Shown: in pieces, positions 1 through 17,176 of the stretch
Position numbering within the stretch: the first letter of the stretch is position 1
Layout of the letters: every line of letters starts with the position of its first letter
Assembly (NCBI GenBank): GCA_016234655.1
Contig: JACRAU010000004.1
Coordinates: 62,001 to 126,000 of the forward strand
DNA: 64,000 nucleotides
Source of the DNA: Betaproteobacteria bacterium
GTDB lineage: Bacteria > Pseudomonadota > Gammaproteobacteria > Burkholderiales > Thiobacillaceae
Direction of reading: 5' to 3'
Made by a program: the position numbers and the translations under genes
The notes under the pieces: model-generated
What the model was told of the DNA's origin: nothing
The model's input: the letters and a program-made list of their open reading frames with translations, nothing else
Databases searched by the model: none

Positions 1-1433
1 CCAACCATACCCTGCTGATCCGGCGCGACGGCGAGGAATTCGCCATCGAGGATTCCGCCGCCCCGATCCGCGACCGCGACGGCAAGGTGATCGGCGTGGT
101 GCTGGTCTTCCACGATGTCACCGAATCGCGCCAGATGGCGGAAGAGATCGCCTACCAGGCCAGCCACGACGCCTTGACCGGCCTGGTCAACCGGCGCGAA
201 TTCGAGCAGCGCCTGAACCACCTGATCAGCAATGCCACGACCGAGCAGCGCCAGCATGCCCTGCTCTACATCGACCTCGATCAGTTCAAGGTGGTCAACG
301 ACACCTGCGGCCACAGCGCGGGCGACGAGCTGCTGCGCCAACTCACGCTGATCATGCAGGACAAGATTCGCGGCAGCGACATGCTCGCCCGCCTGGGCGG
401 CGACGAGTTCGGCGTGCTGCTGGAAAACTGCCCCCTGGACAAGGCGCAACACGTGGCCGAGAACCTGATCGAGTTGGTCAAGGGCTTCCGTTTCGTGTGG
501 AGCGACAAGGCCTTCGTCGTCGGCGCCAGCATCGGCATCGTGGCCATCACCGAGCACAGCCGCGACTGGGCCAGCCTGCTCGGCAATGCCGACACCGCCT
601 GCTACCTGGCCAAGGAAAAGGGCCGAAACCGGCTACAGGTCTACCATGTCGAGGATGCCGAGCTAGCCAAGCGCTACAGCGAGATGCACTGGGTCGGCCG
701 CATCAACAAGGCCTTCGAGGAAGACCGTTTCCTGCTCTACCACCAGGCCATCGTCCCCACCTCGCGGCGAACGGACGAGCTGCCTCATTTCGAGATGCTG
801 GTGCGCATGATCGACGAGGATGGCCAATTGGTCACGCCCAGCGTTTTCATCCCCGCCGCCGAACGCTACAACCTGATGGGCGCCCTGGACCGCTGGGTGG
901 TCAGCAACGCCTTGAACTGGGTGGTCGCCCATAAAGACACGCCGATGATCTGCGCGATCAACCTCTCCGGCCATTCCATCGGCGACGAGGGCTTTTTGCG
1001 CTTCTTGATCGACCAGATCAAGGGTACCGGCGTGCAGCCGCACAATCTATGCTTCGAGATCACCGAAACGGCCGCCATCGCCAACCTGGACAAGGCCGTG
1101 CACTTCATCCGCGAGCTCAAGCTGCGCGGCTGCCGCTTCGCGCTGGACGACTTCGGCGCCGGCCTGTCCTCTTTCGCCTACCTCAAGAACCTGCCGGTGG
1201 ACTACCTCAAGATCGACGGCAGCTTCGTGAAGGATATCGACCGCAACGAGACCAGTTACGCGATGGTGGAGGCAATCAATAAGATCGGCCACACCATGAA
1301 GATCAAGACCATCGCCGAATTCGTGGAAACCCCGATCATCATGGAAAAGCTCGCCGCCATCGGCGTCGATTTCGCCCAAGGCTTCGGCATCTCCGAACCG
1401 ATGCCCCTAGGTGATCTTCTCGAAGCCGCCTAG
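1..1433 (+). CDS. PAS-GGDEF-EAL cyclic-di-GMP signalling protein (5' end outside window)
   Basis: Dual-domain enzyme for making and/or degrading the second messenger cyclic-di-GMP. The reading frame is open from base 3, so the true start lies upstream; the first ~35 visible residues look like the end of a PAS sensor domain (ending VLVFHDVTE). A GGDEF domain follows: GGDEF at nt 396-410, preceded by RGSD five residues earlier, which matches the inhibitory I-site (RxxD). The EAL domain has EML in place of EAL, which the family tolerates, and keeps the other expected acidic, Asn, Lys and Gln positions ([27 protein letters not shown]). Both domains therefore look catalytically competent; the net direction of activity cannot be told. 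A small Cys-rich ORF follows after 15 bp. Confidence 0.93.
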
Positions 1434-13043: not shown

Positions 13044-14150
13044 ATGTCCATCCTTGACGATTGGGCCTCGGATAGCGGCCTCGATAAAGAGGTGTTGAAC
13101 GATTACCTCGATACCATCATCGACAACGCGCGCGCCGTCGAGACGCAGATCGACTCGCTGCGCAACAAGCCCGATTCGCTGGAAGCGGTGGCCACGCTGT
13201 TCCGCGTCTTCCACAACCTGAAGGGCGATGCCCTGATCTGCCGCTTCGACGCCGGCGAACAGATCGCGCACCTGATCGAGTCGATCATCCTGCGCGTGCG
13301 CTCGGGCGAGATCAAGATCACCGAATTCCTGGGCGAAGCCATTCTGCTCGCCTACGACCGCCTGGAGTTGGCCGCCCGCGCGCTGATCGACGACAAGCCA
13401 CCGAGCCAGCTCAAGATCGACGAGACCATCCAGGGCCTGACCGAGCTGACCACGGCCAAGCCGGAAAAGATCGACCCGCTCGCCCGGGGCATGATCGAGA
13501 CCATCTCCGGCTTCCGGCTATCGGAGCAGACCGCCGATCACGATGTCATTCCGCTGGCCACGGTCGAATCCGTGGCCGGAGACCGGATCGACGACCTGCT
13601 GTTCTTCCGCTCGCTGGCCTGGCAGCTCGAACAACGCTCGCCGCTGTTCAACGGCCGCACCTCGCGCAACCTGCAACTCGCCCACGCCATCAACGAGGCC
13701 GCCGGCAAGCCGATCGACCCGCTGCAACTCGAAGTGGCGATCTATATGCACGATGTCGGCATGATGTTCCTGCCCGAGTCGGTGTGGCTGAAGGCCGGCG
13801 CCTTGAGCACGACGGAAAAATCCCTGCTGCAGCGGCACCCGAATTACGGCGCCGGGCTATTGGTCAGGATACCGGGCTGGGAAGAGGCCGCGCGCATCGT
13901 CGCCCAACACCACGAAACGCCGGACGGGCGCGGCTATCCGGCCGGCCTGAAGAGCAAGCAGATATGTCCGGGCGCCAAGCTGATGGCCATCGTCGATGCC
14001 TATGAGTCGGTCATGCTGAAGCAGAGCCATCGCGGCCAGGGCCGTTCGATGTTGCGGGCCGCCGCCGAGATCAACGCCTCGGAACGGCAGTTTGCCGAGG
14101 AGTGGATCGAACCGTTCAACCGCGTCGCGCGCGCGATGCTGGAGGCGTGA
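13044..14150 (+). CDS. Hpt-domain / HD-GYP fusion protein
   Basis: A 368-residue protein that appears to join a histidine phosphotransfer (Hpt) domain to a cyclic-di-GMP phosphodiesterase. Residues ~20-115 are helical with FHNLKGDA, where His57 is in the position of the phosphorylated His in Hpt domains (usually HxLKG). The C-terminal part has an HD pair at 236-237 (YMHDVGM) and HHETPDGRGYP at 289-299, the HD-GYP signature. This suggests control of c-di-GMP breakdown by phosphorelay. The start has GGAGA a few bases upstream (CAGAGGAGACGGT). No kinase is adjacent. Confidence 0.85.
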   Translation: MSILDDWASDSGLDKEVLNDYLDTIIDNARAVETQIDSLRNKPDSLEAVATLFRVFHNLKGDALICRFDAGEQIAHLIESIILRVRSGEIKITEFLGEAILLAYDRLELAARALIDDKPPSQLKIDETIQGLTELTTAKPEKIDPLARGMIETISGFRLSEQTADHDVIPLATVESVAGDRIDDLLFFRSLAWQLEQRSPLFNGRTSRNLQLAHAINEAAGKPIDPLQLEVAIYMHDVGMMFLPESVWLKAGALSTTEKSLLQRHPNYGAGLLVRIPGWEEAARIVAQHHETPDGRGYPAGLKSKQICPGAKLMAIVDAYESVMLKQSHRGQGRSMLRAAAEINASERQFAEEWIEPFNRVARAMLEA

Positions 14151-16219: not shown

Positions 16220-16309
16220 CTTCACGTCCCCAGTGATCATCGGAATTCGCCCGGCCTGCCCGAACCGATAAAATGGGAGTATCGATCAATTCCCGGATTG
16301 GAGCACCCC

Positions 16310-17176
16310 TTGTCGGAAAGCCTTGAACCGCCGCGCGATCTCGTCCGGCCTTTCCTCTTCGAGTCGCTGGATATCCGGGGCGCCGTCGTCCAGTTGAACG
16401 ATAGCTGGCGGCAAATGTCGGCGCGTCGCGCCTATGCCCCGCCGGTGCGCCGACTGCTGGGCGAAATGGCCGCGGTGACGACGTTGATCGCATCGAACCT
16501 CAAGCAGGCCGGCCGCATGACCTTCCAGCTCAAGGGCTCCGGCCCGATCGACCTGCTGGTCATCGACTGCGACGAACAGTTGCGCCTGCGCGGCATGGCC
16601 CACGCCGCGTCCGACCTGGCCGCCGCCCCCGTGCCCGAGCTGCTCGGCCACGGCCAATTGGCGCTGACCCTGGATACGGCCGGCATGGCCCGACCCTACC
16701 AGAGCATCGTGCCGCTCGACGGCGACAGCGTGGCCGCGATCTTCGAACATTACCTGAGCCGCTCGGAACAGCTGCCCACGCGCCTGCTGCTCGCCGCGCG
16801 CGAGGATCGCGTCGCCGGGCTGTTCCTGCAAAAGCTGCCCGATGCCGATAGCCGCGACCCGGACGGCTGGAACCGCGTGCAAGTTCTGGCCGACACGGCG
16901 CGGACCGACGAATTGCTGGATTTGCCGCCGGTGAAGCTATTGAGCCGGCTATTCGCGGAAGAGGATATCCGGGTGTTCGACCCCCGGCACGTCTCCTACC
17001 ATTGCCCGGAGGACCAGGCCAAGATCGACGATATGCTGCGCTCGCTCGGCCAGGCCGAATGCGAGGCGATCTTGCGCGAGCACGGCGCGATCCACATCCA
17101 CGACGAGTTGTGCAACCACGGCTATCGCTTCGACGCGCAAGACGTGGCCCGGCTATTCGGCCAGCCACGGGACTAG
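16310..17176 (+). CDS. hslO: Hsp33-family redox-regulated chaperone with degenerate zinc site
   Basis: Hsp33 is a cytosolic holdase switched on by oxidation of a C-terminal Cys4 zinc centre (CxC...CxxC). The 288-residue product matches the family along its length (DLVRPFLFESLDIRG, GRMTFQLKGSGPIDLL, LLSRLFAEEDIRVFDPR, NHGYRFDAQDV). In the redox switch only two of four cysteines remain, Cys232 (YHCPED) and Cys268 (ELCNHGY). The expected second and third positions are Glu234 and Asp265, with extra histidines nearby (HIHD). The zinc switch is therefore altered or lost. Start is TTG at 16310 with GGAG six bases upstream; no ATG fits. Confidence 0.9.
   Translation: MSESLEPPRDLVRPFLFESLDIRGAVVQLNDSWRQMSARRAYAPPVRRLLGEMAAVTTLIASNLKQAGRMTFQLKGSGPIDLLVIDCDEQLRLRGMAHAASDLAAAPVPELLGHGQLALTLDTAGMARPYQSIVPLDGDSVAAIFEHYLSRSEQLPTRLLLAAREDRVAGLFLQKLPDADSRDPDGWNRVQVLADTARTDELLDLPPVKLLSRLFAEEDIRVFDPRHVSYHCPEDQAKIDDMLRSLGQAECEAILREHGAIHIHDELCNHGYRFDAQDVARLFGQPRD

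Follow-up and report, generated by a model that had tools for sequence, protein, structure and literature searches.

The Hsp33-family chaperone encoded in a 64,000-nucleotide stretch from a Betaproteobacteria bacterium (assembly GCA_016234655.1, contig JACRAU010000004.1, positions 62,001–126,000; the whole stretch is called the window below) has lost the second and third of the four switch cysteines that hold zinc in canonical Hsp33. Sequence comparison places it in a subfamily whose zinc tetrathiolate was taken apart when cysteines 2 and 3 disappeared together and only cysteines 1 and 4 (C1 and C4) were kept. With slightly less than even confidence, we read its redox domain as metal-free, with one potential disulfide between C1 and C4. 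This reading is favored first, a loss of redox control is ranked second and a rewired metal site third. In the two-cysteine Hsp33s, oxidation is probably sensed without the help of zinc, if it is sensed at all.

The protein matched the Pfam family HSP33 (PF01430) at 233.2 bits against a cut-off of 21.4, over the full length of the profile (positions 1–273 of 273), and aligned over its full length with Escherichia coli Hsp33 (1i7f; E 5.9e-51). The linker motifs TxxxxE and RLF were both present, and T196, E201, R213 and F215 were conserved in the alignment of relatives. In the translation of 16310–17176 the region near the C-terminus was VSYHCPEDQAK...HIHDELCNHGYRF (also written VSYHCPEDQAK...HIHDELCNHGYRFDAQDVARLF), in which the switch reads H-C-P-E ... 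D-E-L-C. Alignment to 1i7f placed C232 and C268 at the first and fourth E. coli switch cysteines, the second being Glu234 and the third Asp265. The translation and the codons (TGC for C232, GAG for E234, GAC for D265 and TGC for C268) bore out the coordinates and residues of the first-pass annotation, which had reported an Hsp33 lacking two of its four zinc cysteines and otherwise intact; the latter part also held, given the full-length Pfam match, the predicted Hsp33 fold and the retained linker motifs. The CxC and CxxC pairs of canonical HslO are represented here by C232-P-E234 and D265-E-L-C268, and since the protein has the Hsp33 fold yet lacks the four cysteines that define the canonical zinc switch, it is regarded as a variant within the known Hsp33 family. 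Its score against the NCBIfam equivalog NF001033 was 205.6 bits, below the cut-off of 244, as was that of the sole four-cysteine control, L061 (225.2 bits). The features of the gene and protein are listed in Table 1.

Table 1. Location in the window of the Hsp33-family gene, its protein domains and the four switch positions.
Feature	Position	Strand	Remarks
Gene for the two-cysteine Hsp33-family chaperone (288 aa)	16310..17176	+	TTG start; stop 17174–17176
GGAG, candidate ribosome-binding site, 6 bases upstream of TTG	16300..16303	+	inference from sequence
N-terminal core domain, ~residues 8–178	16331..16843	+	model part superposing on E. coli core structures (9..178); edges approximate
Linker, ~residues 179–225, with TxxxxE (196–201) and RLF (213–215)	16844..16984	+	edges approximate
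Redox (former zinc) domain, ~residues 226–286	16985..17167	+	edges approximate
Cys232, retained switch cysteine 1	17003..17005	+	invariant in 96/96 two-cysteine sequences
Glu234, place of switch cysteine 2	17009..17011	+	position free in subfamily
Asp265, place of switch cysteine 3	17102..17104	+	Asp or Asn across subfamily
Cys268, retained switch cysteine 4	17111..17113	+	invariant in 96/96 two-cysteine sequences

A sequencing error, a pseudogene or a spare copy next to an intact Hsp33 is extremely improbable as an explanation of such a protein. A change from TGC to GAG takes three base substitutions and from TGC to GAC two, which rules out a single miscall as the explanation. The dN/dS ratios against four relatives were below one (0.10–0.27 for core plus linker and 0.14–0.56 for the redox domain, the latter being higher in each comparison), and by these ratios selection acts on the window Hsp33, more loosely on its redox domain than on the core. 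Error and pseudogene were rejected on these grounds and because the same state recurs in many assemblies, across the genus and in other families. The spare copy was rejected since the family search returned a single Hsp33 match in the window's genome, the assembly of which is rated 92% complete. No point in support of any of the three was found.

To follow the change among relatives, 349 loci were translated; two of them without the switch domain (L005 and L037) were dropped, and the four switch positions were read in each of the remaining 347. Three rows of this kind were also dropped from the set of distinct sequences, which, before the last 100 loci were added, numbered 229 (96 two-cysteine, 127 four-cysteine and 6 zero-cysteine). 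The states were discrete: four cysteines, two (always C1 and C4) or zero, with no one- or three-cysteine form among the 347 loci. The 96 distinct two-cysteine sequences had C1 and C4 without exception, while position 2 was occupied by E (37), R (27), Y (22), Q (3), K (2) and others. Position 265 was D in 82 and N in 14, position 266 was always acidic (D in 67, E in 29), and position 235 was D in 83 and otherwise N (9) or S (4). The aromatic neighbors were shifted as well, F230 of the four-cysteine proteins giving way mostly to Y or H and F267 to I, M or L. In the six zero-cysteine sequences the place of C1 was taken by T (3), A, W or D (1 each) and that of C4 by A (4) or S (2), with Asp at 265 and D or E at 266 in all six. 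Two further cysteines were enriched in the thinned two-cysteine set: Cys87 of the core (16568–16570; 93% vs 50% of four-cysteine sequences) and Cys251 (17060–17062; 44% vs 4%). Either could be a further thiol partner.

By genome or record the two-cysteine form was present in 105, the zero-cysteine form in 6 and the four-cysteine form in 224 of 333, two genomes (G058 and G071) having both two- and four-cysteine proteins; the 333 are partly redundant, some contigs being counted twice (e.g., L035/L017 and L046/L102). The search profile (A2) favors the variant and the search design inflates the figure of 105/333, which is therefore no prevalence; the class sample, with 8 two-cysteine proteins among the 159 carriers read (196 carriers in 370 genomes), comes nearer to one. 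In the order sample, the 45 best-scoring of 317 carriers (399 genomes) consisted of 44 two-cysteine and one zero-cysteine proteins; this sample was read in part, covering all 45 best-scoring rows and part of the other carriers. Far down its list, at 60.4 bits, was the zero-cysteine L221, and such a low score with this profile means that further unread variants may exist. Few carriers of the phylum sample were read (252 carriers in 367 genomes), and the 12 genomes that entered with it and were read all had four cysteines.

The two- or zero-cysteine form occurred in seven family-level groups, the window's own (f1) and f3, f53, f96, f176, f185 and f187. All five genomes of the window's genus in which the domain was read, its own included, had two cysteines; close relatives with all four, the finding that would have spoken for an error, were thus absent at this level, and the change, whose conservation in the clade the first-pass annotation had proposed to check, proved to mark a widely distributed subfamily. 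A sixth genome of the genus (G002, rated 100% complete) had no Hsp33 match, so loss of the gene can occur in the genus. Within f1, two cysteines were read in 42 genomes and four in 14, two genomes having both. The genera g4 and g12 of this family had four cysteines in 12 of 12 genomes read, and their proteins grouped in the tree with other four-cysteine proteins of the order, so that in some lineages one type has taken the place of the other. In G071 and G058 the two- and four-cysteine proteins were located on different contigs (L022/L213 and L211/L212, respectively); with contamination put at about 4% in each assembly, the four-cysteine copies may be foreign.

Named two-cysteine carriers included Thiobacillus thioparus DSM 505, Sulfurisoma sediminicola, Candidatus Accumulibacter contiguus and a Sulfurivirga MAG, and the named zero-cysteine carriers were four Ectothiorhodospira species. 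Several of the named carriers (L038, L046, L048, L049, L050, L052 and L053) belong to genera of sulfur oxidizers, in which reactive sulfur species might conceivably select against a zinc-thiolate switch. A MAG titled Rhizobium sp. (JAIBEL010000068.1; L036, 3001–3837) had a Thiobacillus-type two-cysteine Hsp33 with a switch region identical to that of T. thioparus (L038), and the bin is probably misnamed.

Phylogenetic trees were calculated from the core and linker alone, with the switch domain excluded. In the first tree, with 221 usable rows thinned by identity to 155 (56 two-cysteine, 6 zero-cysteine and 93 four-cysteine), the two- and zero-cysteine proteins were all located on one side of a single branch with SH-aLRT support of 100. 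A more careful tree, thinned again to 94 rows (39 vs 55) and omitting the long-branched four-cysteine L238, L245, L247 and L249, gave the same split with 99/98 support, present in 98% of 200 bootstrap trees, the bootstrap being unsettled. Deeper branching among the four-cysteine proteins was poorly resolved, while the two-/four-cysteine split was recovered in both trees; separate convergent origins of the two-cysteine state were considered and found no support in them. We infer that four cysteines would be the older state, as four are present in the solved Bacillus and Thermotoga proteins. Joint losses of C1 and C4 fell on three branches of the careful tree, whereas no branch showed the loss of one without the other. 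The chance of independent C4 losses falling on the same three branches was 1.4e-4 when weighted by branch length and 1.4e-5 unweighted, a statistic from few events, one of which (L221) lies on a long branch, and this counts against leaning on it for a metal-free switch. Taken with the strict conservation of the pair, the joint loss suggests that C1 and C4 work together.

The structure predicted by AlphaFold2 from the alignment of relatives had a mean pLDDT of 92.0, with 85–94 in blocks for residues 231–280, in models that take no account of metals or redox state. All six Foldseek matches with E up to 0.001 were Hsp33 chains. The predicted model superposed on the full-length Hsp33 structures of Thermotoga (1vq0_A), with Z 29.1 over 276 residues at 2.7 Å, and of Bacillus (1vzy_B), with Z 28.3 over 270 residues at 2.2 Å; on 1xjh, the E. 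coli switch domain by itself, it fitted loosely (Z 6.0, 61 residues, 4.6 Å). Fluorescent-protein rows at Z of about 5 had low Foldseek probabilities and were discarded as beta-barrel look-alikes. Nearly the same elements were predicted for the zero-cysteine Ectothiorhodospira protein L049 (pLDDT 92.9). Core, linker and redox domain are thus predicted to have the fold of solved Hsp33 proteins.

With cysteines 2 and 3 absent, neither a zinc site of four thiolates nor either of the classical disulfides can form. In a tetrathiolate site four sulfurs bind one zinc and hence lie about 4 Å apart, so that, with the fold retained, C232 and C268 would face each other if this geometry is kept. We propose that packing and the acidic residues of the loops (D235, D/N265 and D/E266) would keep the redox domain folded in the absence of zinc, that a C232–C268 disulfide would be formed across the empty former zinc site, and that these two cysteines would serve as a thiol switch needing no metal and linked in its action to the metastable linker covering the client-binding surface. 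Such a switch might work in either direction: the disulfide may put the domain under strain so that the linker is set free, or it may staple the domain shut, leaving the unfolding to heat. The possibility that a C1–C4 disulfide stabilizes the domain instead of unfolding it counts against the metal-free switch. Somewhat more tentatively than the metal-free reading of the window protein itself, we suggest that the metal-free Hsp33s may constitute a proteobacterial subfamily with a single C1–C4 disulfide in place of the zinc switch, possibly with its sign reversed (oxidation stapling, reduction or heat freeing), and that they form part of a natural series of four, two and zero cysteines.

The strict C1–C4 pairing argues that the pair still does something, and it is the main obstacle for the view that redox control was simply lost, leaving a constitutive or heat-activated holdase whose cysteines are kept for packing or by descent and whose activity is governed by linker instability alone: passive retention predicts neither the invariance of C1 and C4 in 96 of 96 sequences nor the coincidence of their losses. 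This view, which the first-pass annotation had raised as constitutive activity or lost regulation, is unlikely as a whole, yet it is compatible with the sequence and draws on zero-cysteine relatives in three lineages, for which the Hsp33 fold is still predicted and which show that the pair is not essential everywhere, and on the weaker constraint on the redox domain, whose faster evolution relative to the core could mean relaxation and to that extent speaks against a metal-free switch. It also accords with the account in PMC4735815 of a single linker mutation activating E. coli Hsp33 and of the variant M172S activated by heat alone.

Paired retention and paired loss would equally suit two ligands of one metal. 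C232 and C268 might hold zinc together with D/N265, D/E266, D235 and water, or the two thiolates might by themselves bind a metal that takes two ligands, Cu(I) for instance; in either case the metal would be freed when the cysteines are oxidized. We rate this arrangement as less likely again than lost redox control. The acidic residue at 266, kept in all two- and zero-cysteine sequences, could be a ligand, which favors a metal site at the expense of the metal-free switch. A third or fourth conserved His or Cys was, however, not found in the redox domain of the two-cysteine subfamily in the alignment, Asn replaces Asp265 in 14 of 96 sequences, and the acids persist in all six zero-cysteine proteins, which are incapable of binding metal by thiolates. 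An alternative metal arrangement had been suggested in the first-pass annotation, with Glu234 and Asp265 replacing the cysteines and two histidines close by. Position 265 is indeed always Asp or Asn and both histidines are present in the window protein, but Glu234 recurs in only 37 of the 96 distinct two-cysteine sequences, H231 in 65 and H264 in 42, so the His/Glu ligand swap is weakened. These unconserved histidines, Asn265 and the acids kept without cysteines argue against a metal site built of such residues, and the metal-free domain with a C1–C4 disulfide remains the preferred reading.

No neighbor common to the subfamily was identified among the gene clusters, into which the GC-rich DNA had brought many spurious antisense frames; in the same clustering, the cluster with the window's MnmC-like gene was found downstream of Hsp33 at 16 loci, all of them two-cysteine, a recurrence given no weight in the readings above. 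Elsewhere in the window, 13044–14150 (+) encodes one protein in which an HD/HD_5 domain comes after an Hpt domain (Pfam), joining phosphotransfer with possible cyclic-di-GMP hydrolysis.

Redox-activated chaperones have Hsp33 as one of their models. The existence of a strict two-cysteine subfamily with three zero-cysteine lineages inside it indicates that natural Hsp33s can do without a zinc site of four thiolates, and the natural variants with four, two and zero cysteines would allow the roles of zinc, disulfides and linker instability to be separated. It is also a warning that not every annotated HslO can be read as an oxidation-activated zinc protein. A two-cysteine Hsp33 clade was not described in any title or abstract opening among the matches listed in the full-text literature, with subscription papers and preprints lying outside it, and prior notice elsewhere is possible. 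The four cysteine thiols are termed absolutely (PMC4735815) or fully (PMC7423844, section 5) conserved, contrary to the two-cysteine subfamily, the latter source adding that the second is not conserved in fewer than 10 of 1579 sequences. Those homologs share the loss of cysteine 2 with the window protein and may be members of the two-cysteine subfamily; the section 5 passage names no organisms and is silent on loss of the third cysteine, on a clade and on the paired C1/C4 state.

The nearest known systems include the canonical zinc-switch Hsp33 (HslO) of E. coli (1i7f, 1hw7, 3m7m, 1xjh), Bacillus subtilis (1vzy) and Thermotoga maritima (1vq0). According to PMC4735815 and PMC10598452, zinc there holds the switch domain, which stabilizes the linker, and oxidation leads to disulfide formation, zinc release and linker unfolding; the legend to a figure in PMC4735815 writes the E. 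coli motif as C232-X-C234-X31-C265-X-Y-C268, and the linker motifs TxxxxE and RL(Y/F) are named in section 5 of PMC7423844. TrypOx of Trypanosoma brucei, as presented in PMC7423844, resembles the window protein in that its overall frame is that of Hsp33 while the C-terminal redox domain has diverged, but differs by its longer linker and by keeping all four cysteines. With canonical Hsp33 the window protein shares the fold (Z 28–30 for its model against 3m7m, 1vq0_A and 1vzy_B), the order of core, linker and redox domain, and cysteines 1 and 4 at the same places and spacing; it differs in the absence of cysteines 2 and 3 and, with them, of the CxC and CxxC pairs, the tetrathiolate zinc and the canonical disulfides.
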